A stretch of DNA of 64,000 bases from contig JAFWZX010000001.1 of the NCBI GenBank assembly GCA_017517275.1, positions 1-64,000 on the forward strand. The letters are read 5' to 3'. A program made the position numbers and the translations under genes. Below are positions 306 through 63,773 of the stretch, one piece after another (position 1 is the first letter of the stretch; the number at the start of each line of letters is the position of its first letter). This DNA comes from Clostridia bacterium (GTDB lineage Bacteria > Bacillota > Clostridia > UBA1212 > UBA1255). The notes below the pieces were generated by a model, which did not search any database, had not been told where the DNA came from, and saw only the letters and a list, made by a program, of their open reading frames with translations.

Positions 306-521
306 TTATTTCTTTAGTTTTTGCAAGCAATTATTGCATAATTGACCACAGCCCGAGACATAGTTTTCACGCAAATCGATCGGCATGGTCGTTGGGATAT
401 TGGTTATTCTTCCACATATAACACAACGCTCAATTTTTTCTTTGCAGAAATTGAATTTTCGTGTCGATCTTTTTAGTTCTCTCGCTGCCATTGATACGCA
501 ATCATTTCTGACATCAGCCAT
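306..521 (-). CDS. small cysteine-rich zinc-ribbon-like protein
   Basis: This 71-residue protein has a CVIC pair (C33, C36) and a second cluster (C58, C62, C65), a spacing expected of a zinc ribbon; it has no signal peptide or membrane segment. The ATG overlaps the stop of the preceding gene by 8 bp and has an AAAGGA ribosome binding site inside that gene's 3' end, so translational coupling is likely. It is the last gene of the SipW/TasA-like operon and is followed by a strong terminator. I do not recognise a named family. A cytoplasmic accessory or regulatory role is only a guess. Confidence 0.6.
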   Translation of the reverse strand: MADVRNDCVSMAARELKRSTRKFNFCKEKIERCVICGRITNIPTTMPIDLRENYVSGCGQLCNNCLQKLKK

Positions 522-1179
522 TTGCTGTATCCTTTTTACGTTTAAGTATCAAGATTACCAAAGCAATTCCGCTCACGCCCGCAAGCATTGCATAGAAGTA
601 AAGATTGCTATTATCACCTGTTTGTGGTGGCTTAGGATCATCGGGATCAATGGGCATTTCTTCTGCTTTAAACTCCCAATCGATATATCCGATTGCGTCC
701 TGATATTCGTTACCCAATTCGATAGGAATATCAAGATTCAATATCAGATTCACTTCACCGCCGGAATATAAGGTGCCCAGATAAACCCAATCGGTCATTC
801 CTCCTGTTTGATCTGCTGCCGCATCAAACATATATGCCATTTCATTGTTCTCTGATTTCGCAATAGTCAAATGAAGTTTTGAAAGAAAATCAACTGAATC
901 CTCGTGAGCGCCATGAGAGCGGACATAGAGTTTAACTTTGACACCATACGATGAATCATTTTTAACCGTGATATCTTGCCTTACGCTGTCTCCGGGCATC
1001 AACCCTTTGTACTCAGTGAATAAGTCTGTTGGAGAATGAGAACTACCGGGTTCAAAGATAAACTTGCTCGAATCAGCACTATACGTTACCGTACCGGCTG
1101 CATATGCGGAAATTGACAAACCACACGTCATAGCAGTCACAACAAGGAGTGAGATAAGTATACTAATTATTTTCTTCAT
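514..1179 (-). CDS. sortase-anchored surface protein (PPQTG motif)
   Basis: The 221-residue product has a classic N-terminal signal peptide (MKKIISILISLLVV, with a likely cut after AYA near residue 28), a beta-rich exported domain, and a C-terminal wall-sorting signal: PPQTGD, a hydrophobic stretch (YFYAMLAGVSGIALVILIL) and a KRKK tail. The motif is an LPXTG variant, so covalent attachment to peptidoglycan by a sortase is expected; no sortase gene is in the window. The signal peptide is unlike the SipW-type leaders of its neighbours, so it may be cut by an ordinary signal peptidase. The start overlaps the preceding stop as ATGA. It could anchor or cap the surface fibre made by the operon. Confidence 0.8.
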   Translation of the reverse strand: MKKIISILISLLVVTAMTCGLSISAYAAGTVTYSADSSKFIFEPGSSHSPTDLFTEYKGLMPGDSVRQDITVKNDSSYGVKVKLYVRSHGAHEDSVDFLSKLHLTIAKSENNEMAYMFDAAADQTGGMTDWVYLGTLYSGGEVNLILNLDIPIELGNEYQDAIGYIDWEFKAEEMPIDPDDPKPPQTGDNSNLYFYAMLAGVSGIALVILILKRKKDTANG

Positions 1180-1822: not shown

Positions 1823-4800
1823 TTAATTACTCTTAAAGATGTTGTTACACCAACTGTCGCCGTCGAGCCAATAGGGATTGCTGCGTTCGTTAGTAAACAT
1901 GATCACGTTTCCTGTGGGATTAAGTGTAAATTCTGCGCCGTCCGCAATGGTATCATCGGTAATCACCACTGTGGTTTCATTTTTTACAACACCGTTGTTT
2001 GTGTATCTCCAAGACCATCCAGTGATTTCAACGATCTTGTATTTCTTACCAACTGTAAGGCCGTCAATTGTAACAGATCCGTTTCCGTGAACCGTTACTG
2101 TAAGCTCAAGTCCTTCCTCGTCAGTAATTCTAAATAGGAACGTTTGGTTTTCATCGATAGGATCATGTCCCTGCTTCTGAATCTTCAAAGAAGTGAGATT
2201 ATATTCGAACTTTGCATAGTAGGTGGCAGCTACGTGGAGACCATTGACCTGCTTAGGTTCGATGACACGAGATTCTGTAACAAATTGTGTGCAAGCCTCA
2301 TCCTTGTACCAACCAACGAACTTGTAAGCGGCACTGGTTGCATCCGCAGCAGACAGAGGTCTACCGTTAATCACATTGACCGTCTGACTGGTAGGAGTTA
2401 CCGTACCGCAACCGGCGGGACCCTTTACAACGTAGTTGATGGTAACCTGATCCTCTGCATAATAGAAAATGATCACGTTCGCCACAGGATTTTGCATATT
2501 AGCATCCTGCTCGATCTGAATGATGTGGTTAACGGGAGAATTACTTACCAGATGGTATCCGCTAAACGTATGGTTGGGGGATACGGAGATGGATTCGCTG
2601 TAATACTTCATCGAATCTTCCGTGATAAAAGCATCGGTCTCCAGAAGTACACCTGAGCCTTCGATTCTATACTCGACCTTGTAAGGATACCTGTTTCTCG
2701 TATAGAAGAGCTTCAGGTGCAGGCCTTCTGCGGTGAGCTCGCCGGTGGTAAGCGTATCTGCGATACCGGGATTGTAAGTAAATCCGTTAATCGTTCTGGG
2801 AGTTTCGGTATAAATCGAACCAATCGTACCGACGGATTCATAGGTAGAATACTCATACCAGGATCCGTCCAGGTTCTGTGTATAGTGAGATACCTTGTAA
2901 TACGCATGAACGGTATCCACGGTGTAGAAGAAGTATATTTCGTTGACTGCATCATCTGCACCACTGAGTACCAAAGACTGCTGATAAGCGTTCGGCATGT
3001 AGCCCTGCACCTGTACAAAGTTTTCGGTTACGATGGCATCTCGGCTGTTGACCGTCTTATCCGATACGATCTTGTAATAAGTCTTACCGCCATACTCAAT
3101 CGTTCCGTAACTCGTCGCACCGTCATTCAGGGTTTCTGCAAGATAATAAACGGTGTAAGGCACAGCATCCTTGTAGACATATTCAAAGACGTATTCGTAA
3201 GAAGGAAGATTGTCTTTAAGGTTAAACTCAATAGAATGGCTGGGAACCGTGGGGAAATAGCCGGACTGATAACCCGGATTCAGAGCGTCTCCGGTCTTTG
3301 CATGGAAGGTCATGGTTTCGCCGGCGAATTGCTTACCGGTCTCTCTTTCAGCAATTTCCGTATTCGTTCCCTTCAGCACGTACTTGATGGTGTAAGGAAG
3401 CTGAACATTGGAGCTCCATTTTGCATAGATCTGCAGATCCTTTGTGACCGGCATATTCTTAAAGTCAAACGCCTTTTCAGTATTGCCGTCCATATAGAAC
3501 CAGCCTACGAAGGTGTAGGGGGTGTTTTCGGGATCCTCGGGGATATACTGCTGCTGCAGGAAGGAACCGTGAGGAAGCTTAATGGTTTCCTGGATGATAT
3601 CGTTGCCGGTGGGGAAAGATCCGTCCGCATTCTTGTAACGGTAGATCGTTACGTCGTGCTCAACGGGAACCCACTTGGCGTAAAGAAGCTTATTAGAGGA
3701 AGGCATGGTAGTATTGGAAAGAACCACTTCTTCGCCGGTACATTCGGGGTTCTGATACCATCCTGCAAACTGAACGGAGCCTGCTTCGTAGTAGGAAGGA
3801 GGAGTAGGAGTGAATGCATAGGAACCGAGATTATACAGATACTTGACACTCGCTGTTTTTTCTATTGTCTCACCATTATTGAATTCAAGAATGTACTGGT
3901 TACGGAGGTAGTAGAACTTAGCATTATTATAGGAGTTACCGTTGGCTGTACCTTCCTTATATGTAAAACCTTCAATGCCGTATCTCTCTTCATCTGTAAC
4001 ATTACCGCTGCTTGAGCTGACATCTGTGTGATGAAGAACATACGTTACGCCGTTATAAACTATAGTATTGGTATCTCCAGGAAGTGCTTCTGTGTAATAA
4101 TAAGCTTTGTAGCTACTATTACCTGTTTTAGGTCCCCAGAACTTAGCGCCACCAACAGGCATAATCTGAATGCTGTTCTGCCAAGTGTTGTTCTTATTCT
4201 GCACTAACCAGCTGGAACTTTCATTATACGTAGGCCACTTGGAAAGAATACTTGCTCCCCACTTGGCCGTAATACGCAGAGTGGTATACTCGTTTGTACA
4301 GCTTTGATTATTATGAAACTCTACCGCATATTCAACACGATCATAAAACACGTTCATAACGGTAGTACCGTCTGCCGCAACGGTAACGGACTTATTCTTT
4401 TCCGGATCGGTATTCAGCGTCCACAATGCGGAATCGTATTCATCTCCGGTAGGCGTGTTCAGACGACAGCTACTTGAGTGAGTATGTGCAATACAAGAAG
4501 GATAACAAGAAGCATTATGAACATGCAGAGAGCAGTCTACACATGAATCTATGTGTGTATGCTCACAATTGCTGGTAGTCACATTAATATCTGTTCCGCT
4601 ATTAACGCTTCTGCTAAGTTCATACCAAGTTCCGTCAATCTCTTTATAGTAATGGTAGCCCGAAAGCCGTCCTCCGGTTCGTACGACACCATTATCCCAT
4701 TTTTCACTGGAATTTAAAGTGTTGATCGTATTAGTATTCGTTACCTCAGTAAGCGTAGCGTCGTTGTTACCCACTCTTACGGCGTAACACTGTGCGGAAT

Positions 4801-7800
4801 GCTTGTGTGTACAATTGCCATAGCATGTATCAGTATGCGTATGCCCTTCTTGATTACACGTCGTTGTGCAACCGGCGTTATGGGTATGCTCATCCAAGGT
4901 ACAAACCATTTGATTTGTGCCAAAAGTCAACGTAGAGCCAACCTTGGCATAAATCTCAACGGATTCCTTGTAGGAATATCCATCGTCATTGGGATTCTCG
5001 CCCCAGTATACGATGGTCACCTTGGCGTTTTCGGCAGCCTTCCAAATCGCCTTATAGGTCTTGCCGTTTACAGGCATTGTGTCAGGAAGAGTGTCAGCAA
5101 TGCCGTCGCCGGAACCGGAGGTGATATCATCCCAACCAACGAAGGTGTAGCCTGCCTTAGTGGGACTCGGAATATCCAGCTTCACACCGTGACGGGCAAA
5201 GATAGGCTGTACACCGTAACCGCCGTCCAGGTCAAACTTCATCAGGTAGTAGATACGGTCGTAGTACAGATTGAATACCGTACTGCCGTCTGCCGCTACG
5301 GATGCCGTAGTAGTGGTCATCTTCGTCTGATAATAACCGGGAATAGGCATAGAAATCGCATCGATCACGGTTCCGGTCAGAGCATACATGGTTCTCGTCA
5401 TCAGAAGCTGATAGTTATCATCCTCCGCATTCTGTGTATAAATATTGACGGTATACGAAACATTCGTGGGCTGATAGAATACGTTCAGTTCGAAGTCTTC
5501 GGTCAGGTAGCCCTCAAACTTCCATTCATCCATACGGACGAAAGTGCCGTTCTCATTCATCACGTAAGGCAGATAGCCCATAACGGTGGGGAATACTACG
5601 GGGTCTGTCAACTGGGTCGTAGATCCAACAGATGAAGTATAGGCAGGAGCTGCGATCTGCATATTGTGATAGTAGAGATAATTGATCTCAATTTTATAGA
5701 TCGTAGTATCGCCACTACCGGTCGTACCATCTGAAGCGTCAGCCAAAGCAACGACATTTCTAGGCCTTGATCTGTAGGATGCAACAGCGGACACTTCGTT
5801 ATTCACAGTGATAACAAAGGTGTTTCTGACCATATTGGTGCCATCCGAAACAGTCAGACGAATGTAAATTTCAGATGTCGTAGCATCTACCGCATGGATG
5901 AAATTCGAATCGAGATACGTTCCATCCTTATACGGATCAAATACGGGCTTGAAGGTTGCAGACTGTCCCTGCAGCCACCACATATCGTATGTTTTGTCAA
6001 AGAGCACTTCCCAGGAGTAAGTCAGATCTCCGGTGAGAGTCGTATTGGCGGAAAGCGCGGAGTTGAAAGACTGCAAATCAGAAGCAGAAATATTCATATT
6101 TTCTGCAACTTCGCCATCGACCAGAACATCTACCGTATCATCGCTCGGCTTAGGTTCCAAAAGGGTGATGATAATGGGTTCGGTAATAACCGTCTTACTA
6201 CCTGCAGAAGTAACGCAACGAACTTTTACTTGATCGTTTTCATCCTTCAGGCTTATTATCATACCTGCCACGATGGTAATCTCCGCATCGTTTTCACCGG
6301 AAATATTCACCCACAGATCGTTTTCGGTGTCGTAGCAGATCTGCCATTTGTATGTGATATCTGCGCTCTGCAAAGAAGTAATTGCAGAAACAACCACTCC
6401 CGCAGAAGTAGTAACCGACGTGTTGACAACGGGATCGCCGTTGGAATCAAAGACACCGGCGGTGCCATCGACATTGATACCGATAAGGTCAGTAGACTCG
6501 CACCAATGTGCGTGTGCAAAATCTTCCGGCCAAACATAACCAGGAGCAGCATCAATCTTATAGAGCAATCTTGCGTTGCCGGCATCGAAATAGTAATCGG
6601 TGATAATGAGTTTTTCGGGAAGATTGGTTTTGAACGCCATGGTAGCGTTGAGGCTCATGGGTTCGGGATAAAGCATTAACAGATCATGGCTAATCTCAGC
6701 CGTTGCACCAAGGGCTGCGCCGTAGTTGGTGGAGATCACGACAACGGAGAATCCATCAATTTCAAAAGTGGCGTATCCGTCAGCGACTACGAAGGGGCCG
6801 AGAAGCTCGGTTTTACCATTGTGCAGGTGATACACGGTGAAGAAGTCACCGTCTTCCAGACCAAGCTGGGCTGCAAGAATCGATACGGTAACGGTTTCAC
6901 CTTCAGCGGGCTGCCATTCCGAATCGTTCTGCTTAATCTTAACGTCAAGCGCAAGCGCAATCTCAAACGACTCAACGCCATTCACCTCGGTGCCGCTTGC
7001 ATCTTCAAGATTCAGTTCTGCATCCTCGGGGATATTACCCGAAACGGTAACGGCTACATTCTCACCCTCGGAAGTGGTGATATCCTTCGAGATTTCAAAC
7101 TCGGGATCATTGGGCTCGGAAGCTACAAGCGTTAAGGGAATCGCCTTACTGTACGCAATCTGGTTTCCCGCCTGAGACTTGCAACGGATATTGACAACAC
7201 CCTCGTCGTTGAACAAAGCAGCAACCATACCGTAGGAAATATTGATGGCAGCAACATCTTCACCGTAAATGTCTACCCACTTGCCATCTTCATATTCAAT
7301 CTCCCATTGATAGTTTACGCCTGCGGTGAGCTGAGAGAGAGAGGAAACGGCGGTGAATTCGAGCTTTTCGTAGATGGGAAGGGTGATGGCTGAAACCGCA
7401 TTTCCGTTTTCATCGGTTACGGTAACTCTGCCATCTCCGTATTCTTCGGGTAATTCGCCGAGAGTTACATCGGATGCCTTTACAATGAAGTAAGGAGAAC
7501 CGATGAAGCCTTCACTTTCAAGCCAATAGTAAATCTCATCGTTATATGTAAAGGAATAACCTGCTTTGAATTCAGCGGGAAGTTGTGCCGCGAGATAGTC
7601 TTTTGCACCAAATTGATTATCATACAGCGTTACACTTTCACCTGTAAAGTAAGCGGTTTCTGCAAGCCAATCAAAAGATTCAAGCAAAAATTCAAACACG
7701 ATAACGGATGATGCGGAATTTGTATATACAATATCACTGACATCGTATCCCATTTTATCGGTAACGGCTGCCGAAAAAACGACTTCGTCAACGTACAGAA

Positions 7801-8572
7801 AAGCTGCTCCATAGAGTACATCTTCATTATAGGTATCGGTCGCGATCTGTTCTGCTGTGTAAAGGATACCGACATTTCCGTCCACAGATGTCCAAGGAGC
7901 ACCGTTCGCTTTTGTAATTTCAACCTTCAGTGCGTTGCTCCAGGAGCCGTTTTCCTCATGTACAAATGCAAGTGATGAAACAGAATAATCGTCATTATGA
8001 TCGGTTATTGAGATCGTTGCATCTGCAAGAGCATCGGGACCGGAAAGGACAAAACGAACGTTGGTAAGATTGTTTACAGAAACATTTATGATGCGGATCA
8101 CGTCGTTTTCGTTGTAGATCACAAGATAAGGATCATATCCATCTTCAAGACCAATATCATCGGAGTATAAGATCCAGGGCTTTTCCTGAAGGATTTCGGG
8201 AAGGTCGTCACCTGTCACCTTATACCAATGGAAGCCATTTTCCTCATCGTAGTGATAGTCGGTGATCTTGAGCACAAGATCGTTTGCGGGGATATCGTCA
8301 TAAAGTACCCAATTCTCATATCCGACCTCTGAATTTCCGTAATAGTCAGACATTTCGGCGGCAGTACTGTTCATAAGTGTGTCTTGGTCAATAAGAAGGA
8401 AATCCGTCCACCAGTCAAATATTGCCTGTTTACCAATATTAACTTCTAAGTTAATAGGTCCCCTCGAATCTGCTACAACCGAATATACCGGCTTTGATTG
8501 CGTAAGCATTGGTATAAGCATACTAATGCAAAGTACAAGAGACAAAATTCTTTTCATGATTCCGTATTTCAT
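1823..8572 (-). CDS. giant InlB-repeat adhesin, 2249 residues
   Basis: The protein opens with a signal peptide (MKYGIMKRILSLVLCISMLIP) after an AAGGAGG site. Residues of about 40-1100 form beta-rich immunoglobulin-like modules. From about residue 1110 there are InlB B-type repeats (for example FDLDGG followed by GYTFVGWD; later YKFVGWYKDEAC). Two Cys/His-rich clusters at about 1226-1262 and 1345-1385 repeat HTHxxxCY-like units. A CnaB/SpaA-like domain occupies about 2120-2230. The end (ERSNPYWLDGDSWCNNIF) has no LPXTG motif and no membrane segment, so anchoring is unexplained. It lies inside the SipW/TasA-like operon and is probably the large adhesive component. Ligand unknown. Confidence 0.85.
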   Translation of the reverse strand: MKYGIMKRILSLVLCISMLIPMLTQSKPVYSVVADSRGPINLEVNIGKQAIFDWWTDFLLIDQDTLMNSTAAEMSDYYGNSEVGYENWVLYDDIPANDLVLKITDYHYDEENGFHWYKVTGDDLPEILQEKPWILYSDDIGLEDGYDPYLVIYNENDVIRIINVSVNNLTNVRFVLSGPDALADATISITDHNDDYSVSSLAFVHEENGSWSNALKVEITKANGAPWTSVDGNVGILYTAEQIATDTYNEDVLYGAAFLYVDEVVFSAAVTDKMGYDVSDIVYTNSASSVIVFEFLLESFDWLAETAYFTGESVTLYDNQFGAKDYLAAQLPAEFKAGYSFTYNDEIYYWLESEGFIGSPYFIVKASDVTLGELPEEYGDGRVTVTDENGNAVSAITLPIYEKLEFTAVSSLSQLTAGVNYQWEIEYEDGKWVDIYGEDVAAINISYGMVAALFNDEGVVNIRCKSQAGNQIAYSKAIPLTLVASEPNDPEFEISKDITTSEGENVAVTVSGNIPEDAELNLEDASGTEVNGVESFEIALALDVKIKQNDSEWQPAEGETVTVSILAAQLGLEDGDFFTVYHLHNGKTELLGPFVVADGYATFEIDGFSVVVISTNYGAALGATAEISHDLLMLYPEPMSLNATMAFKTNLPEKLIITDYYFDAGNARLLYKIDAAPGYVWPEDFAHAHWCESTDLIGINVDGTAGVFDSNGDPVVNTSVTTSAGVVVSAITSLQSADITYKWQICYDTENDLWVNISGENDAEITIVAGMIISLKDENDQVKVRCVTSAGSKTVITEPIIITLLEPKPSDDTVDVLVDGEVAENMNISASDLQSFNSALSANTTLTGDLTYSWEVLFDKTYDMWWLQGQSATFKPVFDPYKDGTYLDSNFIHAVDATTSEIYIRLTVSDGTNMVRNTFVITVNNEVSAVASYRSRPRNVVALADASDGTTGSGDTTIYKIEINYLYYHNMQIAAPAYTSSVGSTTQLTDPVVFPTVMGYLPYVMNENGTFVRMDEWKFEGYLTEDFELNVFYQPTNVSYTVNIYTQNAEDDNYQLLMTRTMYALTGTVIDAISMPIPGYYQTKMTTTTASVAADGSTVFNLYYDRIYYLMKFDLDGGYGVQPIFARHGVKLDIPSPTKAGYTFVGWDDITSGSGDGIADTLPDTMPVNGKTYKAIWKAAENAKVTIVYWGENPNDDGYSYKESVEIYAKVGSTLTFGTNQMVCTLDEHTHNAGCTTTCNQEGHTHTDTCYGNCTHKHSAQCYAVRVGNNDATLTEVTNTNTINTLNSSEKWDNGVVRTGGRLSGYHYYKEIDGTWYELSRSVNSGTDINVTTSNCEHTHIDSCVDCSLHVHNASCYPSCIAHTHSSSCRLNTPTGDEYDSALWTLNTDPEKNKSVTVAADGTTVMNVFYDRVEYAVEFHNNQSCTNEYTTLRITAKWGASILSKWPTYNESSSWLVQNKNNTWQNSIQIMPVGGAKFWGPKTGNSSYKAYYYTEALPGDTNTIVYNGVTYVLHHTDVSSSSGNVTDEERYGIEGFTYKEGTANGNSYNNAKFYYLRNQYILEFNNGETIEKTASVKYLYNLGSYAFTPTPPSYYEAGSVQFAGWYQNPECTGEEVVLSNTTMPSSNKLLYAKWVPVEHDVTIYRYKNADGSFPTGNDIIQETIKLPHGSFLQQQYIPEDPENTPYTFVGWFYMDGNTEKAFDFKNMPVTKDLQIYAKWSSNVQLPYTIKYVLKGTNTEIAERETGKQFAGETMTFHAKTGDALNPGYQSGYFPTVPSHSIEFNLKDNLPSYEYVFEYVYKDAVPYTVYYLAETLNDGATSYGTIEYGGKTYYKIVSDKTVNSRDAIVTENFVQVQGYMPNAYQQSLVLSGADDAVNEIYFFYTVDTVHAYYKVSHYTQNLDGSWYEYSTYESVGTIGSIYTETPRTINGFTYNPGIADTLTTGELTAEGLHLKLFYTRNRYPYKVEYRIEGSGVLLETDAFITEDSMKYYSESISVSPNHTFSGYHLVSNSPVNHIIQIEQDANMQNPVANVIIFYYAEDQVTINYVVKGPAGCGTVTPTSQTVNVINGRPLSAADATSAAYKFVGWYKDEACTQFVTESRVIEPKQVNGLHVAATYYAKFEYNLTSLKIQKQGHDPIDENQTFLFRITDEEGLELTVTVHGNGSVTIDGLTVGKKYKIVEITGWSWRYTNNGVVKNETTVVITDDTIADGAEFTLNPTGNVIMFTNERSNPYWLDGDSWCNNIFKSN

Positions 8573-9314: not shown

Positions 9315-10055
9315 TTACTCGTTGTAGGGATCGTAGGAGCCGGGAACACCGAAAGCAGTGTCAAGCGCCTCGTGAGCGTTTGCAAAGGTCTCAGCCTGTG
9401 CAGCCTCAGCGATAACCTTGATCTGGATGTTACCATTTTCGTCTGCAAACTGGTCAAGAGATACTTCGTTGCCCAGCGTGTCGGTGTATACAAATTCCTG
9501 TCCGTTCCAAGTTGCGTCTACAGTCTTGTCAACGTATACCTGAGAAATAGCATACTGAAGAGTAGAGGCACCGGGGGTCAGAATGGACTCGTAAGTGATA
9601 ACGTAAACGTTGTACTTGATGCCGTCGACAGTAGTGGTGTAGAAGTTCCACTCGTCGCTACCGGTTCCGGGATAGTTAGCACCGTCAGCAGTCTTGTTCC
9701 AGCTCCACATACCGTCAGCAACGGATTCCTTGTCGAAGTTGAAGTGCAGGAAATTGTTAACAGCTGCGAAGGTGGGGTTGCCGTCGTCAAGAGCAGCGGG
9801 GATTGCAACGTGTACGCGAACGTAAGCGTTGGTAGAGTGAGACTCGTTGGAAACCCAAACGTCCTTATTTATCTTGAGGTTGGGAACAAGTTCGGAATTC
9901 TGCTCAAAGTTCTCGTTGAGAACAATGTCAACGCCTTTCATTACGAATACGTTGTCAGCAGTTTCTTCATCGGTGAAGTATGCCAAAGATGCGCCTGCAA
10001 CTGCAACGAAAGCAAGGCAAACCACCAGAGAAATAGCAAGAATCTTTTTTTTCAT
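9315..10055 (-). CDS. TasA/CalY-like fibre subunit paralogue
   Basis: This 246-residue protein has the leader MKKKILAISLVVCLAFVAVA followed by GASLAYFTDEETADNVFVM, a typical SipW substrate signal. The mature part shares with the next two upstream genes the motifs YVRVHVAIP, ADGMWSWNK, YNVYVITYES and the end ALDTAFGVPGSY. The three genes form a tandem paralogous set that arose by duplication. By analogy to Bacillus TasA/CalY it is a secreted, possibly polymerising surface subunit. A GAAAGGA site lies before the ATG. Confidence 0.85.
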   Translation of the reverse strand: MKKKILAISLVVCLAFVAVAGASLAYFTDEETADNVFVMKGVDIVLNENFEQNSELVPNLKINKDVWVSNESHSTNAYVRVHVAIPAALDDGNPTFAAVNNFLHFNFDKESVADGMWSWNKTADGANYPGTGSDEWNFYTTTVDGIKYNVYVITYESILTPGASTLQYAISQVYVDKTVDATWNGQEFVYTDTLGNEVSLDQFADENGNIQIKVIAEAAQAETFANAHEALDTAFGVPGSYDPYNE

Positions 10056-10101: not shown

Positions 10102-10851
10102 TTAGTTACCCTTAGTGGTGTCAACACCTGCTGCTGCAGTCCAGTCAACAGTGTAAGCGCCGGGAACGCCGAATGCAGTGTCAAGAGCCTGGTAAGCATC
10201 GGTGAAGCCTGCTGCCTGAACGCCTTCAGCGGCAACGTAGATGCTCCACTTGCCATTGAGTTTTTCGTTGATACTTGCGATATCTTCGTTGGTAACCTTA
10301 GGATCAAGGTAAACCTGCTTCATAGCGCTGCAAGTAGCCTCGCCTGCTGCAAGGGTCGACTTGAAGGTAACAACGTAAACGTTGTATGCAACGTTATCGA
10401 TAGTTGTGGTGTAGAAGTTCCAGTTGCCGCCGTTTTCAGGATAGTTGGCGCCGTCAACGGCCTTATTCCAGCTCCACAGACCGTCAGCATAGGTTTCCTT
10501 ACCCATATTGAAGTGGAGAACGTTTTTGCTTGCGTTGAAGCTGGGATCGCCATCATCGAGAATGCTAGGAATTGCGATATGTACACGAACATAAGCAGCT
10601 TCGGAGCCGGTATTGGTTACAAATACTTCCTTGGTTACTGCGTTATTCCAAACCTTATTTTCTGCATCGTAAACTGCAGGAAGAAGCTTGGACTCGTCTA
10701 CAAAGTTTTCATAAAGATCGATTTCAACGTTACCGACGGTGAATACATTGTCTTCAGCGTCAGTGTCCTGTAAATATGCAAGAGAAGCACCCGCAATAGC
10801 TGTTATCACAAGGATAGCGGCGCATGCAAGTATAAATAGTTTCTTTTTCAT
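10102..10851 (-). CDS. TasA/CalY-like fibre subunit paralogue
   Basis: The 249-residue product has the leader MKKKLFILACAAILVITAIA, then GASLAYLQDTDAEDNVFTVG, and the family motifs YVRVHIAIPSILDDG, ADGLWSWNK and ALDTAFGVPGAY. It is the middle member of the tandem triplet at 9315-11631. The 46-50-bp gaps each carry a GAAAGGA ribosome binding site and no terminator, so the triplet is co-transcribed. Cleavage by the SipW encoded upstream is expected after the ASLAY-region. Confidence 0.85.
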   Translation of the reverse strand: MKKKLFILACAAILVITAIAGASLAYLQDTDAEDNVFTVGNVEIDLYENFVDESKLLPAVYDAENKVWNNAVTKEVFVTNTGSEAAYVRVHIAIPSILDDGDPSFNASKNVLHFNMGKETYADGLWSWNKAVDGANYPENGGNWNFYTTTIDNVAYNVYVVTFKSTLAAGEATCSAMKQVYLDPKVTNEDIASINEKLNGKWSIYVAAEGVQAAGFTDAYQALDTAFGVPGAYTVDWTAAAGVDTTKGN

Positions 10852-10905: not shown

Positions 10906-11631
10906 TTATACGGGCCAATCAATTTCGTAGGTGCCGGGAACACCGAATGCAGTGTCAAGAGCCTCATAAGCATTCTCAAAGGAAGCGGCCTGTACGCCCT
11001 CTGCAACCACCTTGATAGACCAATTGCCACCAAGAGCCTCGTTCATACCAACGAGCTGTTCGCTGGTTACTTTAGTATCCAGGAATACCTTGTAGATTGC
11101 ATTTTCAGCGGTGGTTTCACCTGCATTGAGAATGGTCTCGTAGGTAGCAACGTAAACGTTGTACGCAATACCGTCAATCTCAGTAGTATAAGAGTTCCAG
11201 TTACCGCCGTTGCCGGGCCAACCGGGCATTGCTTCGCTCGCACCGGCATCATCAATAGAAGCATTCCAGTTCCAAAGTCCATCAGCTACGGAAGCCTTGG
11301 AGAAGTTCCAGTGAAGAGTGTTGTTATAGGATGCATACTGAGGCTGATCTTCAGCACCGCTGTCAAGGATAGCGGGGATAGCAATATGTACACGAACGTA
11401 AGAGGGCTGAGAATCATCAGCAACGGTTACGCCTACTTCCTTGGATACATCAACGCCGGGCATCAAAAGAGAACCGTGAACAAACTCATCGTTCAAAGTG
11501 ATGTCGATCTTACCGATGGTGAATACGTTGTCGGCAGAATCTTTGTCGGTCAGATATGCCAAAGAAGCTCCGGCGATAGCAGTTACAACCATAATTACTG
11601 CAAGAGCTGCTATAAGAAGTTTCTTTTTCAT
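10906..11631 (-). CDS. TasA/CalY-like fibre subunit paralogue
   Basis: I place the start at MKKKLLIAALAVIMVV (11631; 241 residues) because GAAAGGA lies 8 nt upstream. An in-frame ATG 18 nt earlier would contain that ribosome binding site. The SipW-type leader continues TAIAGASLAYLTDKDSADNV. The mature domain shares YVRVHIAIPAILDSG, ADGLWNWN and ALDTAFGVPGTYEIDW with the two downstream paralogues. It is the first of the triplet and is likely a main structural subunit. Confidence 0.85.
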   Translation of the reverse strand: MKKKLLIAALAVIMVVTAIAGASLAYLTDKDSADNVFTIGKIDITLNDEFVHGSLLMPGVDVSKEVGVTVADDSQPSYVRVHIAIPAILDSGAEDQPQYASYNNTLHWNFSKASVADGLWNWNASIDDAGASEAMPGWPGNGGNWNSYTTEIDGIAYNVYVATYETILNAGETTAENAIYKVFLDTKVTSEQLVGMNEALGGNWSIKVVAEGVQAASFENAYEALDTAFGVPGTYEIDWPV

Positions 11632-11661
11632 GATATTATTTCCTTTCATTATTTATTTTAG

Positions 11662-12207
11662 TTAAGAGTTGGCGGGATCTACGAGCTTCCAAGCATCAGC
11701 TACAGATGTAACATTGTCCTTCTGTACTGCATATGCAGTAAAGGTGAGTGTAGGCATGGTGCCTTCAGTCAGTGCATTAAGCTCTGTTTTAAGAACAGTC
11801 GCTTTAACAAGAACTTCGTTGTCCTTCAAAACTGCAAACTCGGTATCAGCTTCTGTTGCGGGAACTTCACGGTAATAAACATTAGTTTCCCCGGGGAGGG
11901 CAGTCCAGCCGTCAGCGATTTCATAAGTCATAAAATCATCAAAATTTGCAGACTTATCGATTTTTACAAACAGCCAGCACGCTTCACTATCCTTTAAAAC
12001 AGTTACTGTGGGATCCTTGGTAATGGTGTTTCCGGGAATCATCTTGAGGTCGAGATTCTCAGATTCATCAAGAGTTATGTTGATATCGCCATACTCAAAG
12101 GTGTTTTCTACAGGGGGTGTCTCAACAAACAAATATGCAAGAGTTGCACTGATGCTGATGCAAACAACCATCACTATAGAAAGAATAAGAATTAAACCTT
12201 TTTTCAT
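11662..12207 (-). CDS. TasA/CalY-like exported protein, shorter type
   Basis: This 181-residue protein has the SipW-type leader MKKGLILILSIVMVVCISIS followed by ATLAYLFVETPPVENTFEYG and a short beta-sandwich with MIPGNTITKDPTVTVLKDSE and WLFVKIDKS. It belongs to a second subgroup with the two genes upstream (12248, 12891), which share the KDPxIxVxxGSExCxxFVKL pattern. It lies 31 bp before the triplet of longer subunits. Known relatives are exported, surface-associated proteins. Confidence 0.8.
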   Translation of the reverse strand: MKKGLILILSIVMVVCISISATLAYLFVETPPVENTFEYGDINITLDESENLDLKMIPGNTITKDPTVTVLKDSEACWLFVKIDKSANFDDFMTYEIADGWTALPGETNVYYREVPATEADTEFAVLKDNEVLVKATVLKTELNALTEGTMPTLTFTAYAVQKDNVTSVADAWKLVDPANS

Positions 12208-12247: not shown

Positions 12248-12829
12248 TTAATTTGCAGCTGTTACGCCAGCCCAAGCGATCGCCGAAGTATCGGCAACAG
12301 TTACATCATCATCGAAATTTTCAGATTGGTGTGCATAAGCTGAAATTACAACATTTTTTCCTACGAGGTCATCGACATCATCCTTAACGAGGTCATCGGC
12401 AAAGTTTAATTTGGTAAATACTTCAAGGTCTTTCTCTACATCTGTAGCATCTACAATTTCATTGTAGCGATACAATACCTTGGTACCGGACTCACCAACT
12501 TTTATCCATGCCGGACCTATGTTATACGTTGCTGCAGCACCAAGTTGATTGTCAATGAGCACGTAGACATAGCAGGTTTCACTGCCTTCAACCACAGTAA
12601 TGACAGGATCCTTATCCAATTCATCACCCGGAACAACGTTGGTAAATTCCAAACCATCCTTGTCGGCTTTGTTGTTCTCTGATAGTTCGAGAGTGATCGT
12701 ACCATATGTAAAGGTGTTGGTTACAACGTTGGACTGAGCAACGAGGAATGCCAAGGTGCCTCCAATGGCACAAAGAAGCGCAAGAGAAAGAGCAACAACA
12801 GCAATCACAAGTTTCTTATTAGTTGTCAT
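12248..12829 (-). CDS. TasA/CalY-like exported protein, shorter type
   Basis: The 193-residue product has the leader MTTNKKLVIAVVALSLALLC, then AIGGTLAFLVAQSNVVTNTF, a variant of the SipW cleavage region, and TYGTITLEL as the first strand. The mature domain has VVPGDELDKDPVITVVEGSE and CYVYVLIDNQ, matching its two neighbours in the subgroup. An AAAGGAG site precedes the start. It is co-transcribed with sipW. Its exact place in the fibre is unknown. Confidence 0.8.
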   Translation of the reverse strand: MTTNKKLVIAVVALSLALLCAIGGTLAFLVAQSNVVTNTFTYGTITLELSENNKADKDGLEFTNVVPGDELDKDPVITVVEGSETCYVYVLIDNQLGAAATYNIGPAWIKVGESGTKVLYRYNEIVDATDVEKDLEVFTKLNFADDLVKDDVDDLVGKNVVISAYAHQSENFDDDVTVADTSAIAWAGVTAAN

Positions 12830-12890: not shown

Positions 12891-13562
12891 TTAGTTTCCA
12901 AAGGAATTTGCGGTTGCTGTCCAAGTAGCGGTAGCGTCATCGGTAGAAACTGTAGTACCTGCAGTAGTATTTGCGATGAATCCATCAGCCTGAACTGCGT
13001 ACGCGGTTAAGTTAATAAATGCACCACCAGTAACATTTCCTTGAGCATCCTTTTCTGTTGCATACTTAGAAACATCAGCATTTTCGGTGAGTGTGAACTC
13101 ATCAAACACTTTGATGTGATCGTTTTCGGCAACGACTTCATTGTAAGCCCAAATGTTATTGGTAGAGTCAATAAGAGTCCAGCCATAACCCTGCATCTGT
13201 TCTTCAATGGTTTTAGAAGCAATAATATCCTTCAAACCATTTTCGAGTTTTACGAACAGTAAGCAATTTTCACTGCCGTCATCTACGTGGATCGTGGGAT
13301 CCTTTACATAGTTGTGACCGGGAATAAGATGATACTCATTCTCCTGAACACGGCCTTCAGTAGACTCACGGTCATCACCGGCTTCTACTACACCGTTTGA
13401 ATCCACATCCGCTTCATCAAGCGATATTCCTACTTGACCAAACGTGAATGTGTTTTTGACAAAATCTCTGTCGGTGAGGAACGCCATCGTTACGAACACT
13501 GTACTAACGACGAGTAACACCGCGCAAAGAGCCAGAGCCAATGCTTTCGTTTTTGTTCTCAT
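12891..13562 (-). CDS. TasA/CalY-like exported protein, first after sipW
   Basis: The 223-residue protein starts MRTKTKALALALCAVLLVVS and continues TVFVTMAFLTDRDFVKNTFT, a SipW-type leader. The mature part includes HLIPGHNYVKDPTIHVDDGS and CLLFVKLENG, and an insert with DVDSNGVVEAGDD that resembles a calcium-binding or dockerin-like loop. It is the first substrate gene after sipW (45-bp gap) with a strong AAGGAGG site, as expected for an abundant subunit. Confidence 0.8.
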   Translation of the reverse strand: MRTKTKALALALCAVLLVVSTVFVTMAFLTDRDFVKNTFTFGQVGISLDEADVDSNGVVEAGDDRESTEGRVQENEYHLIPGHNYVKDPTIHVDDGSENCLLFVKLENGLKDIIASKTIEEQMQGYGWTLIDSTNNIWAYNEVVAENDHIKVFDEFTLTENADVSKYATEKDAQGNVTGGAFINLTAYAVQADGFIANTTAGTTVSTDDATATWTATANSFGN

Positions 13563-13606: not shown

Positions 13607-14149
13607 TTACCCCTGTGTTGTGTCCCCAATACTTGGGGATTTTTTGTTTTTCTTCTCATATTTTTGAAATAAATCGGGAAGAAAAACAAGAATCAGCAAT
13701 ATTGCACCAGCCGCGATTGCGATATACATTCCCGGTGGATGTTGGATGTAATATGCAATATATCCGAGAAGCGGGATTTTGAAGATCGGTGTTCCAATTA
13801 AGTTCTTGAAATGAACAGGAGCACCGTCTTCCGTTTTATTCGCATCACCCTTTGTATAAAAAAGTTGATTCTCTTCATCAATTCTTATAACACGGTGTGT
13901 TGATGGCGTATCATTTGGTAAGACATATGTAATAACGTCATTCACTTCGATTTCAGTAGGATCAATCTTCTTTACATAGATCAATGAGCCTACCGGATAT
14001 TCCGGTTCCATGGATCCCGAAATGACCGAATACACTTGAACTCCAAACAAACGTACTCCCGCCAAAAGAATTGCAAATATCACCACGATCACTACTAAAA
14101 CGGTAGAAACGATGTCCCAAGCTCTTTTTATTTTCTTTGGTATCTGCAT
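13607..14149 (-). CDS. sipW: signal peptidase I, SipW (ER-type)
   Basis: This 180-residue membrane protease would cut the leaders of the TasA/CalY-like proteins encoded downstream. It has an N-terminal membrane segment (about 14-34), the nucleophile in VISGSMEPEYP (S46), the general base as histidine in STHRVI (H85) in place of the lysine of bacterial-type enzymes, and a GD motif (D102). A second membrane segment lies at about 141-157. The Ser-His arrangement defines the ER-type family of B. subtilis SipW. It is the second gene of the operon, 14 bp after the TetR gene. Confidence 0.9.
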   Translation of the reverse strand: MQIPKKIKRAWDIVSTVLVVIVVIFAILLAGVRLFGVQVYSVISGSMEPEYPVGSLIYVKKIDPTEIEVNDVITYVLPNDTPSTHRVIRIDEENQLFYTKGDANKTEDGAPVHFKNLIGTPIFKIPLLGYIAYYIQHPPGMYIAIAAGAILLILVFLPDLFQKYEKKNKKSPSIGDTTQG

Positions 14150-14163
14150 ACCATAATTCCCTC

Positions 14164-14757
14164 CTAATTTTCTTGATTATTCCTCTTTAAATACGGCTGT
14201 ATCGAATAATAGACCAGTCGAAACACATGTTCCGTTGTATCATCGTTATTTTCAATCTCTTCCGAAAACACTTTTACAGCAAAATCCAGCATCACGTTAA
14301 GAATGTGATTCAAGAGCATCCAGGCATTTGCTTCCTCAATAAATGCCTCCGAAAACTTTTCAACCAATGGAGAGTATCGCTTTTTATGTTCGAATGCAGA
14401 ATACTTTGCAAAATACGGCGAATAATAATAGCGAACAAATGCAAGATACTTGTCCTTGTTCCCGAGCAGAAACTTCCAAACCGCTTCAAAAAAGACTCTA
14501 CAACGTAGTTCGTATTCCAACTCTGACATATACATCACTGAAATATGTTGCATCGCTTTTCTGACAAGCTCTTCATCTAAAGTTTCAAAAGCTTTGGTTA
14601 ACAAATTTTCTTTATGGGCGAAGCAACGATAGATGTACGCCTCGTTGATCCCCGTTCCTTGCGTGATTACTTTTGTTGTAGTTTTGTCAAGACCTTCATT
14701 TGCAATCACCGATATGGTTTTTGCAATCAATGTTTGTCGCATCTCCTGCGGACTCAT
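14164..14757 (-). CDS. TetR/AcrR-family regulator
   Basis: The 197-residue protein has a TetR-type helix-turn-helix at about residues 10-53 (TTTKVITQGTGINEAYIYRC, then FAHKENLL) and a variable helical ligand domain. It is the first gene of the sipW operon, and an AAAGGGGGGGAG site precedes its ATG. TetR proteins mostly repress nearby promoters, so autoregulation of the surface operon is likely. A palindrome AGAGT-N5-ACTCT at 14897-14911 upstream could be its operator, although the same sequence resembles the recombinase repeats. Ligand unknown. Confidence 0.85.
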   Translation of the reverse strand: MSPQEMRQTLIAKTISVIANEGLDKTTTKVITQGTGINEAYIYRCFAHKENLLTKAFETLDEELVRKAMQHISVMYMSELEYELRCRVFFEAVWKFLLGNKDKYLAFVRYYYSPYFAKYSAFEHKKRYSPLVEKFSEAFIEEANAWMLLNHILNVMLDFAVKVFSEEIENNDDTTEHVFRLVYYSIQPYLKRNNQEN

Positions 14758-14990
14758 GGTCTCCCCCCCTTTACTCGCAAATAGCGTTCACTACAAAAAG
14801 AGTGAAAAATAGGCGGTCAATCTCCATTCAGTCCACACATTGCAGTCTTGATCAAAAACGGACGAAAGAGGTTGTCGGCCTCAAGAACTTATTTGCAGAG
14901 TCTATCACTCTGTTTTGTGGCAGATATAGATAGTAAAACTTAAACGATTAGCCTTAATCATTTGCACCTAAAATTTCTAATGAGCATAGA
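14758..14990 (-). other. leader region between tetR and the invertible segment
   Basis: No coding sequence is evident here. I could not find a convincing sigma-A promoter facing tetR on the - strand: the TTGACC and TTGATC candidates have no good -10 at proper spacing. The stretch contains the third recombinase-like repeat at 14891-14909. The lack of an obvious local promoter fits the idea that transcription enters from the adjacent invertible segment. Confidence 0.5.
14891..14909 (+). repeat. third, degenerate copy of the recombinase repeat
   Basis: The sequence TTTGCAGAGTCTATCACT resembles the left repeat at 14991-15010 in direct orientation, with a few differences. With two more bases it forms the palindrome AGAGT-CTATC-ACTCT. 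It could be an accessory binding site, an alternative crossover site, or a TetR operator. Confidence 0.5.
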
Positions 14991-15010
14991 CTTTCGTAGA
15001 GTTTATCACT
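14991..15010 (+). repeat. left inverted repeat of putative invertible segment
   Basis: CTTTCGTAGAGTTTATCACT matches the reverse complement of 16445-16464 at 19 of 20 positions. It lies between the recombinase gene's 3' end and the tetR-sipW operon, as expected of a crossover site for a tyrosine recombinase. Confidence 0.7.
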
Positions 15011-15025
15011 CAATAAAGAAGGGTG

Positions 15026-15051
15026 AAAAAGGCCATACGTATAGCCTTTTT
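15026..15051 (-). terminator. terminator after the recombinase gene
   Basis: On the - strand the hairpin AAAAAGGC...GCCTTTTT with an ATACGTAT core ends in five U residues, 35 bp after the recombinase stop. In the present orientation it also blocks read-through from the recombinase into tetR-sipW. Confidence 0.85.
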
Positions 15052-15085
15052 GCACCTTATAGACGGATATTCATGACGGCTTAAA

Positions 15086-16207
15086 TCAGAAACCAATTGC
15101 AGACAACTTGTTCATATTGTCTCGCTTCAGTTCCATAGACGAATGAACATAACGCTCTAAAGTAATGCGCGGACTGGAATGTCCTAATATTTCGCTAAGT
15201 GACTTTATTTCAAAGTTCACTTCCACGCATCGAGTCGCAAAAGTATGTCTCAGTGTATGAAAATGAATTCCTTCAAAACCACACTCACGAGTATACCTTT
15301 CAAGTCTGTATTGCATGGTTCTCGGCTCAACAAATTGATCTTTTTTTCCGGTTAAAACATAAGCTGATGGAATGCCATTGTATTGTGTTTTGCACAGTCT
15401 TGCTGCATAGTCGGTAAGTGGGATAATGCGAGTTGAAAAGTCGCTTTTGGGATCGCTTATGACGATCTTGGTTTTCGTTAAAGATCCTTCATCTAAATTC
15501 TTTAGTCTCTGCATTGTTGCGTTTACCTGTATTGTTTTTTCAGTTAACGAAATATTGCTCCAACGCAATGCACAAACTTCACCAATACGCATACCGGTTA
15601 GAAGCGCTAACAATACTCCGAATTTACATTCATCCATATCGTCAAGCAAATAATTGACAAAACGAGTTTGATCTTCCTTGCTCAGAATTCGAATCTCATT
15701 TTTGGGCACTTTTGGATATATGATATCTATTTCAGGAAGCCGTTCAGGAGATTGCTTCGAAGTATATTTAATAATTGAATGAAGAATAGTTAGAATATCC
15801 TTCACCGTCTTTGGTGACAACTCCTCTTTGAAGAGCAAGTCATGACTAAACTCTTCGATCAATAAGGAACTGAGAGACTGTACCAAACAACTACCTAATC
15901 TTGGCTTGATATGTTTTTCTACCATACCGCTATACTTTACATAGGTGGATTGTTTGACACGATCTCGATTTAATCTCAGCCACTCATCACAGTAAAATGC
16001 GATTCTTCTTTTCTTTGTTGCTGTAGATACCGGTTTCCCGGATATCAAAGACGCTTTTGCCTCCGTCAATTTTCGTTTTGCCTCTCGGTATGATTTTCCG
16101 TAGCAATAACCGAACTTTGCACTTCCGTCAGGGTGGTAACCTTTAATATATCTTGCCTCCCAACGATTGTCCTTTCTTTTATAAATGTTTTCGCCTTTTC
16201 TTGACAT
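15086..16207 (-). CDS. tyrosine site-specific recombinase
   Basis: The 373-residue protein has an AP2-like N-terminal arm-binding region (about 8-50), a SAM-like core-binding domain (about 68-155) and a catalytic domain with R207 (TGMRIGEVCALRW), K254, H317 and R320 (HTLRHTFATRC), H343 (LGHSS) and Y353 (LERYVHSS), so all the catalytic residues are present. An AAGGAGG site precedes the ATG. The family includes Tn916-type integrases and phage integrases, but no other phage or conjugation genes are nearby. Flanking inverted repeats and adjacency to the surface operon suggest it acts as a DNA invertase. A plain integrase of a lost element is the alternative. Confidence 0.9.
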   Translation of the reverse strand: MSRKGENIYKRKDNRWEARYIKGYHPDGSAKFGYCYGKSYREAKRKLTEAKASLISGKPVSTATKKRRIAFYCDEWLRLNRDRVKQSTYVKYSGMVEKHIKPRLGSCLVQSLSSLLIEEFSHDLLFKEELSPKTVKDILTILHSIIKYTSKQSPERLPEIDIIYPKVPKNEIRILSKEDQTRFVNYLLDDMDECKFGVLLALLTGMRIGEVCALRWSNISLTEKTIQVNATMQRLKNLDEGSLTKTKIVISDPKSDFSTRIIPLTDYAARLCKTQYNGIPSAYVLTGKKDQFVEPRTMQYRLERYTRECGFEGIHFHTLRHTFATRCVEVNFEIKSLSEILGHSSPRITLERYVHSSMELKRDNMNKLSAIGF

Positions 16208-16413
16208 AAAGATGTCCTCCTTATTTTTGATATAAATATTTTACTAAAAAAATGTGTAGATCATTTTGTAGAAATTATGACAAGACGATAATTTTGACGG
16301 CTATTCTTTTGTTAGATAGTGCACCTGCGTATAAAAAAACGGGAATCAAATGTAAACAAACAGAATTTTTTTGTAAACTTCTTGATTTAGTAAGTGAAAA
16401 CACTTGATTTTTT

Positions 16414-16443
16414 TTAAGAAAGTATGCTACAATTTCCTTCGTA
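16414..16443 (+). promoter_or_regulatory. outward sigma-A promoter at the edge of the invertible segment
   Basis: TTGATT (16414-16419), an 18-bp spacer and TACAAT (16438-16443) form a near-consensus promoter reading rightward. Its start point would fall inside the right inverted repeat. In the present orientation only about 60 nt would be made before the terminator at 16503-16538. After inversion it would read leftward into tetR-sipW. Confidence 0.6.
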
Positions 16444-16444
16444 T

Positions 16445-16464
16445 AGTGATAAACTCTGCGAAAG
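16445..16464 (-). repeat. right inverted repeat of putative invertible segment
   Basis: On the - strand this reads CTTTCGCAGAGTTTATCACT, identical to the left repeat at 14991-15010 except C for T at position 7. It begins one base after the -10 box of the outward promoter. Confidence 0.7.
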
Positions 16465-16502
16465 AAAACCAATATTTTATCATTGTGCGTTATATGTTTT
16501 CC

Positions 16503-16538
16503 AAAGATGCTGTCTGATTTGAAAGCATCTTTTTTTCG
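16503..16538 (+). terminator. terminator facing the outward promoter
   Basis: A 9-bp stem AAAGATGCT/AGCATCTTT is followed by a run of T residues on the + strand. No gene lies between it and the promoter at 16414-16443, so its evident role is to stop transcription leaving the invertible segment. Confidence 0.8.
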
Positions 16539-16567: not shown

Positions 16568-16621
16568 GCATAAAAAGCCAACATCGAAAATAATGAAGCT
16601 TTCGATGTTGGCTTTTTATGC
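16568..16621. terminator. strong bidirectional terminator, 22-bp perfect stem
   Basis: The arms 16568-16589 and 16600-16621 are perfect reverse complements around a 10-nt loop, with A and T runs on both sides. It is a second barrier behind the terminator at 16503 and insulates the surface locus from the region to the right. The 16622-16815 stretch beyond it contains no gene that I can see. Confidence 0.75.
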
Positions 16622-16815: not shown

Positions 16816-17050
16816 GTGTTACGATTTCTGATATTCGCCGTGGTTCTCATATCGCTATATAGCGGTCTTCTGTACTGTGCCGACTGCGGTTCAAAGCTGT
16901 ACTTTGTTCGGGGAAAATCACAAACGAACAGTTCCAAATGTTATCCCACGGTTACAACGCAGAGCAACAAATCGACATCTACTTTAGATACGTTGGATGC
17001 ATTGTTACAGATCCCACAGATTGAAACAAAAGAAAAGGACGGACAGCCTA
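16816..17050 (+). pseudogene. relic of a large serine recombinase (TndX/TnpX type)
   Basis: One frame encodes YSGLLYCADCGSKLYFVRGK, the start of the zinc beta-ribbon domain of large serine recombinases. About 80 bp further, another frame reads HGYNAEQQIDIYFRYVGCIV, which resembles their C-terminal DUF4368-like end. The intervening sequence is too short and the frame is broken, so this is a deleted remnant. The N-terminal catalytic domain is absent. It marks an old transposon or conjugative-element insertion near the inverton. Confidence 0.7.
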
Positions 17051-17062
17051 AACTGTCCGTCC
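17028..17062 (-). terminator. terminator of the RpiB-family gene
   Basis: On the - strand a perfect 10-bp stem GGACGGACAG/CTGTCCGTCC with a 6-nt loop is followed by TTTTCTTTTG. A further 9-bp inverted repeat (TTACGCAAG/CTTGCGTAA) lies just upstream, near 17081-17115. Confidence 0.85.
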
Positions 17063-17148
17063 AACTCCAAGACACCGCCTTACGCAAGATATCCCTATGA
17101 CAACTTGCGTAAAGGAAAGCCGTTTTTTTGTTTAATTTTTATTGATTA

Positions 17149-63385: not shown

Positions 63386-63535
63386 CATAGTTTTTTGTTA
63401 TTTTTATTGTAATCGATATTGTTATTTGCTGTTTAAGATATCCTCATGACAGCCTGATTTCCTATTTGTTTTTATCCTCGTTCAATTTGCATCTACCATT
63501 CATGCAATAGAATCTATAGGTCAGTCTTTCTTCCT

Positions 63536-63773
63536 CGTCTACCTGCTCGGTTTACGCAACAGGGTTACGGTTACCTTTGGGACTTCGTTGCTTTTTGCCA
63601 ACTTATCCGCCTATTACGCCTTCATACCGAGTTTCTGTTCGTCAGGCTACGATTTCGCTATCCCTTCTTCTCGCCTATGCCTCGCGACATAAACCTTGGG
63701 AGTCGCTTTCGGGTTGGTCAGTAACTACCTCCCAGTGGACTTTCACCACAGAGCATTGATATGCCCGTCATAC
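63536..63773 (-). mobile_element. 5' fragment of a group II (IIC-like) intron upstream of rpoB
   Basis: From 63773 leftward the sequence begins GTATGACGGGCATAT and shares GGTGAAAGTCCAC, GAAGGGATAGCGAAATCGTA, GCCTGACGAACAGAAAC and GGCGGATAAGTTGGCAA with the copy at 1-232. No reverse transcriptase and no intron 3' end lie before the rpoB promoter, so it is a truncated relic; similarity may continue weakly to about 63430. Its first base directly follows the U-tract of the terminator at 63774-63805. Confidence 0.7.

Follow-up and report, generated by a model that had tools for sequence, protein, structure and literature searches.

A candidate self-contained promoter inverton, encoding its own integrase-like recombinase, beside a SipW/TasA-type fibre operon in Clostridia

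The window, the 64,000-nt stretch of a Clostridia contig analysed here, carries an operon of surface protein genes read on the minus strand, followed upstream by a short segment holding a tyrosine recombinase gene (Table 1). The operon had been described as a tetR-sipW unit with fibre and adhesin genes, and profile matches back this description, with a signal peptidase scoring above the TIGR02228 cut-off standing beside TasA/camelysin-like substrates that match PF12389 and TIGR04088, as in a SipW/TasA-type fibre operon. Orthology with SipW is not claimed because the score against the equivalog model NF046067 is below its cut-off.

The recombinase gene is complete and lies between inverted repeats at 14991-15010 and 16445-16464 (19/20 identical), as stated in the original prediction, and both terminators that it proposed are present, the one on the recombinase/operon side as a hairpin with a T-run and the outward one, claimed at 16503-16538, two bases shorter. 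This reading was incomplete in that the repeats are full core sites of a tyrosine-recombinase system, with the consensus TTTCGCAGAG-N7-CTCTG in which TTTCGCAGAG is the outer arm and the CTCTG-like stretch the inner arm, and in that a third, imperfect site between the left repeat and tetR (motif match at 14890-14909) had been missed. With up to three mismatches allowed, the window has three copies of the repeat motif where 0.02 would be expected. The window sites are less perfect than those of most related loci, having CGTAGAG in the left arm and CTCA and CTAT as inner arms. The third site is probably decayed or weak, and the weak hairpin between it and the left site is probably a decayed terminator cassette. 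The segment measures about 1.45 kb and the recombinase gene is the sole mobility gene inside it. On the distal flank no intact gene precedes the terminator, just past which lies a perfect 22-nt hairpin with a 10-nt loop, bidirectional and terminator-like (16568-16621). A recombinase zinc-ribbon fragment (PF13408) at 16816-17100 is a serine-recombinase remnant adjoining the switch, and serine integrases also adjoin the switches of loci L061 and L065. Matches to group II intron D1-D4-3 (Rfam RF02001) were seen on the minus strand at 63518-63691 and at 1-149, the latter cut off by the start of the contig.

Table 1. Features of the switch and its operon. Coordinates are those of the window (contig JAFWZX010000001.1, GCA_017517275.1, positions 1-64,000, forward strand), except in the last row, where they refer to the loci named.
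Feature	Position	Strand	Basis or remark
Cell-wall-anchored protein, LPXTG type	514..1179	-	PF00746
Operon ORF, 210 aa	1176..1808	-	no Pfam family
Giant surface protein, 2249 aa, Listeria-Bacteroides repeats	1823..8572	-	PF09479, TIGR02543
Operon ORF, 188 aa	8590..9156	-	no Pfam family
Further TasA-like protein	9315..10055	-	48% identical to protein 4
TasA/BsaA-like protein 5, SipW-type signal	10102..10851	-	TIGR04088
TasA/BsaA-like protein 4, SipW-type signal	10906..11649	-	TIGR04088, PF12389
TasA-like protein 3	11662..12207	-	TIGR04090 weak; homologous to proteins 1 and 2
TasA/camelysin-like protein 2	12248..12829	-	PF12389
TasA-like protein 1	12891..13562	-	homologous to the next two proteins of the operon
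SipW-like signal peptidase	13607..14149	-	TIGR02228 101 bits (cut-off 52); NF046067 99.6 bits, below cut-off 190
tetR-family regulator, first gene of operon	14164..14757	-	TetR_N E=1e-5; 65% identical to tetR of the paralogous switch
Third core site ATTTGCAGAG-TCTATCA-CTCT	14891..14911	+	direct orientation to left site, one spacer mismatch
Weak hairpin between inner and outer operon-side sites	14942..14963	-
Left core site TTTCGTAGAG-TTTATCA-CTCA, inner site, operon side	14992..15012	+
Predicted invertible segment, spacer to spacer	15002..16453		end core sites inverted with identical 7-bp spacers
Terminator hairpin with T-run 3' of recombinase gene, within segment	15026..15051	-
3' arm-type repeat pair GCCGTCA...CCGTC	15062..15080	-
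Tyrosine recombinase, 373 aa; arm-binding-like N-terminal, core-binding and catalytic domains	15086..16207	-	PF00589, Phage_integrase E=1e-26
5' arm-type repeat pair GCCGTCA...TCGTC	16284..16301	-
Outward promoter TTGATT-N18-TACAAT, extended -10 (TGC)	16404..16433	+
Right core site TTTCGCAGAG-TTTATCA-CTAT	16443..16463	-
Terminator on distal flank	16503..16536	+	would absorb promoter in OFF state
Double-site regions of other loci	L011:3315-3420; L013:9641-9770; L008:6487-6610; L048:4121-4235		terminator-like hairpin enclosed

The catalytic R-K-H-R-H-Y set of the recombinase (R207, K254, H317, R320, H343 and Y353, with K254 assigned by inference) is invariant, being kept in all 31 aligned intact relatives. 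Among solved structures, those of the Tn1549 integrase are closest in both sequence and fold, and full-length lambda Int aligns over 363 columns. In the structure model the N-terminal domain takes up a beta-beta-beta-alpha fold (residues 8-55) and strands are present at residues 225-251, a possible counterpart of the IntTn916-type beta insertion of the catalytic domain, while a search of the recombinase with the Pfam arm-binding model gave no match. Inside both segment ends are GCCGTCA-type repeats, frequently in pairs with a period of 12-13 nt, at 1.64 and 2.1 per locus, compared with 0.11 and 0.23 in shuffles. Core sites together with such repeats have the layout of a heterobivalent integrase, with arm binding putative, and the enzyme is predicted to be of the arm-binding Tn1549/lambda-like integrase type, unlike the simple invertases of phase-variable fimbriae. 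The arm-binding domain is associated with the integrases of mobile elements (Smyshlyaev et al., PMC8138268), such that its use in an inversion switch would be unusual.

The outward promoter that had been proposed inside the right end of the segment is real but sits ten bases to the left of its claimed place of 16414-16443, and the single base said to separate it from the right repeat gives way to 11 nt between the end of its -10 and that repeat. The view that the operon side lacks a good promoter stood, with no independent candidate for tetR in 14758-14990 scoring better than 200 shuffles of that region (125/200 shuffles were as good). Within the segment a TTTACA-N17-TACATT candidate is predicted to drive the recombinase. 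When the segment is inverted in silico, the outward promoter comes to lie on the minus strand at 15022-15051, some 260 nt of leader ahead of tetR, and this predicted ON-state leader would contain the weak hairpin and the third site.

The same genome holds a second recombinase gene (L004, G000:C23), 75% identical to that of the window, which adjoins its own tetR and sipW genes, both reading away from the recombinase. The L004 segment has its own 29-nt inverted repeats, with sites cleaner than those of the window, and lies the opposite way round, the 5' end of the recombinase towards tetR (ON) and a TTGCAA-N17-TAAAAT promoter directed at tetR, which begins about 60 bp from the site. On this comparison the window and the paralogue would show one design in its OFF and ON arrangements, respectively. 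In both genomes with two switches the spacers differ from switch to switch, being TTTATCA in the window and TTCAGCA in L004, and TTCCCAA in L012 and TTCATTC in L047. Distinct spacers of this kind would keep switches in the same genome from recombining together. A search of the window's own genome for orphan core sites, as might allow trans-acting control, found good pairs only at the two switches, single matches with one or two mismatches on contigs C19 and C12 looking like chance.

The comparison was extended to 32 intact relatives of the recombinase (43-100% identity) drawn from genome collections with one genome per species, core sites being located by their arm sequences alone. In 28 relatives core sites flank the recombinase gene on both sides, the start of the upstream site usually preceding the start codon by 206-281 nt and the end of the downstream site following the stop by 92-143 nt. 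In 28/28 loci, the window included, the two ends share an identical 7-bp spacer, with 23 distinct spacers among them, while shuffling of partners gave a mean of 1.4 matches (maximum 8), and the middle spacer positions matched at 0.26-0.32 between loci, which is chance level, against 1.00 within them. A tyrosine recombinase needs identical spacers for strand exchange, and with the sites inverted the product of such exchange would be inversion. In 29/29 testable loci the recombinase-upstream site has close by on its inner side an outward promoter of sigma-70 type, whose -10 is most often extended and which beats shuffles in 28 of these loci (p<0.05), with mean scores of 11.8 at this end and 4.6 at the other (Mann-Whitney p=6e-11) and with 9-11 or 31-33 nt between the end of the -10 and the inner arm in most loci. 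Outward terminators were found on the far flank in 16/27 loci and on the operon flank in 0/27 (Fisher p=1e-6), an excess that may come in part from the terminators of convergent neighbour genes. A terminator 3' of the recombinase is clear in the window, L004, L007 and L013, was not found in many loci and was dropped as a family-wide feature on that account.

Both orientations occur beside SipW operons, with the 3' end of the recombinase facing the operon (OFF) in seven loci (the window, L007, L009, L016, L029, L048 and L051) and the 5' end towards it (ON) in five (L004, L008, L028, L030 and L052). Orientation relative to the operon has changed at least seven times on the recombinase tree, which includes sister pairs in opposite states (window/L004, L007/L008 and L013/L027). 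These differences lie between species or paralogues and attest to past inversions rather than to present switching. The flipped arrangement was seen in homologous loci and the paralogue but was not found within the species, the genus having one other genome, which is without the recombinase gene. Contigs L019, L020, L027, L049 and L053 break off less than 320 nt from the stop codon of the recombinase, always on its 3' side. Such ends could be assembly breaks caused by mixed orientation, but were not taken as evidence of a mixture because all are on the 3' side.

The first genes targeted often encode a TetR regulator and/or SipW, followed by TasA/camelysin-like and giant surface proteins, while at other loci the target is a VWA protein beside a giant adhesin homologue, an S-layer-homology protein or a sugar transferase, such that surface functions appear to dominate among the predicted targets. 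SPFH/Band-7 proteins with C-terminal zinc ribbons lie downstream of the switch in two distant loci (L022:11887-13131 and L065:4644-5801). In addition, five IMG/VR contigs (L060, L061, L065, L067 and L068) encode integrases 37-44% identical within 22-29-nt inverted repeats in the same layout, indicating that the family is broader than the set analysed. Outward TTGACA promoters were seen in several of these viral-database contigs. On its sequence and layout the window switch appears to be one member of a Clostridia family of self-encoding promoter invertons that often stand beside SipW/TasA-type operons.

The reading of the segment as a candidate inverton, its outward promoter, the OFF state ascribed to the present orientation and the choice of the operon as target are all supported by the comparisons, namely by the oppositely oriented paralogue, the two orientations among homologous loci, the identical spacers within pairs, the conserved outward promoter and the terminator sink on the far flank. 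We put the probability at about 0.9 that the segment is a self-contained promoter inverton in which the segment-encoded, integrase-like recombinase inverts 15002-16453 to switch the fibre operon. In such a mechanism the recombinase would act on the two inverted core sites at the ends of its own segment. In the present orientation the promoter would fire away from the operon into the distal terminator, and after inversion it would face tetR and the sipW, TasA-like and adhesin genes beyond. Inversion would exchange the segment and leave the outer arms and flanks in place, and would therefore be reversible. From the arrangement of these parts we infer that the segment would flip in the source organism, that the outward promoter would transcribe the entire 14-kb operon and that the resulting phenotype would be phase-variable fibres.

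The segment might instead be a small integrase-only mobile element, a Tn916/Tn1549-like remnant in which the repeats are the ends and the effect of the promoter is accidental. Such an origin would suit the integrase-type enzyme closest to Tn1549 Int, its arm-binding-like domain, the arm-type repeats at both ends, the serine-recombinase remnant on the right flank and the relatives on phage-like contigs, but excision and integration would need directly oriented sites, and the end spacers are inverted copies in 28/28 loci. Further, the outer arm TTTCGCAGAG, which is not part of the segment, recurs in conserved form at all loci and is therefore not random target DNA, no further mobility gene is present, and promoter and terminator sink are conserved relative to the operon, making this explanation improbable. 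An integrative element with direct att sites was rejected, the sites being inverted in 28/28 pairs with only a recombinase inside. A shade less probable again is a fossil switch that once inverted and is now locked OFF in the window by decayed site arms and the spacer mismatch of the third site. The recombinase and the operon genes are intact, no catalytic residue has been lost and the two main sites share one spacer, and although the left arm and both inner arms depart from consensus and L004 and other loci have cleaner sites, the arms CGTAGAG and CTAT recur in other intact loci (L028, L029 and L027). Just as slight is the likelihood that inversion mainly controls the recombinase or the distal side while the operon has another promoter. 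The candidate recombinase promoter would favour this, but it lies within the segment, so that inversion leaves its relation to the gene unchanged, and the distal flank, which carries a terminator in 16/27 loci, offers no intact gene ahead of it. In addition, no tetR promoter beats shuffles and the gap between site and tetR in L004 is very short. A Hin-type system was rejected, the enzyme belonging to the PF00589 tyrosine family and not to the serine recombinases.

The extra sites of the family add a further layer to the inverton reading. In L008, L011, L013 and L048 a second, directly repeated core site lies 82-109 nt from the first on one flank. The paired sites of L011 and L013 enclose a clear terminator that reads outward from the segment, those of L008 and L048 weaker hairpins, and the cassette of L013 nearly duplicates its own segment's 3' end. 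The counterpart in the window (14891-14991) has the spacer mismatch and weak hairpin already described. In L012 eight sites stand in tandem at 32-bp spacing on the side away from the operon (L012:11218-11442), their spacers drifting from TTCCCAA to CTCCGGG with only the nearest two matching the partner site. A broader scheme may be offered tentatively, with the odds against it as a whole, in which heterobivalent integrases of Tn1549/lambda type became self-inverting promoter cassettes in a widespread family, kept independent by locus-specific 7-bp spacers. In those four loci, and in decayed form in the window, the directly repeated site would enclose a movable terminator, giving four arrangements of which one would be fully ON.

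Promoter inversion controls surface structures in gut bacteria, but to our knowledge a given switch can seldom be paired with its flipping enzyme. Here enzyme, sites, promoter and target would form one portable unit, offering an explicit and testable pairing of enzyme and site, and a rule of private 7-bp spacers would account for the coexistence of several switches within a cell. The locus also suggests that SipW/TasA-type fibres are phase variable in uncultured Clostridia and that arm-binding integrases, regarded as enzymes of mobile elements (PMC8138268), have been recruited as phase switches. As the segment is about 1.45 kb long, such switches may escape repeat scans that set a low maximum distance. 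Promoter invertons and switches with the recombinase inside the segment, such as Hin, are already known. In the open literature searched, no paper was found that joins an inverton to SipW, nor one describing an arm-binding tyrosine integrase inside its own invertible promoter with private spacers, and the text of the PhaseFinderDC paper (PMC11892184) gave no match to TasA or signal peptidase.

The gut invertons of PhaseFinder and PhaseFinderDC (PMC11892184) resemble the window in having inverted repeats around an outward promoter aimed at surface genes with a tyrosine recombinase nearby, but in the window the recombinase is inside the segment, hence its length, and has an arm-binding-like domain with arm repeats. 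The RecV switches of Clostridioides difficile (PMC5903667, PMC2784873, PMC5386303) are likewise Clostridia systems in which a tyrosine recombinase sets surface structures OFF or ON, but RecV serves several switches in trans, whereas each switch here has its own enzyme and private spacer. The H segment of Salmonella shares the outward promoter and the recombinase gene within the invertible segment, Hin being encoded within its own segment (mentioned in PMC5903667), although Hin is a serine recombinase with an enhancer and the window enzyme a tyrosine recombinase. The sipW-bsaA operon of C. perfringens (PMC7395162) has SipW and TasA/BsaA-type fibre genes in common with the window, and its bimodal expression is tied to a two-component system and PilA2 rather than to DNA inversion. 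The integrases of Tn1549, Tn916 and lambda offer the closest solved structures, the arm-binding-like N-terminal fold and the core and arm-type repeats, but integrate and excise at directly oriented sites, whereas the sites of the window are inverted and enclose no other cargo.
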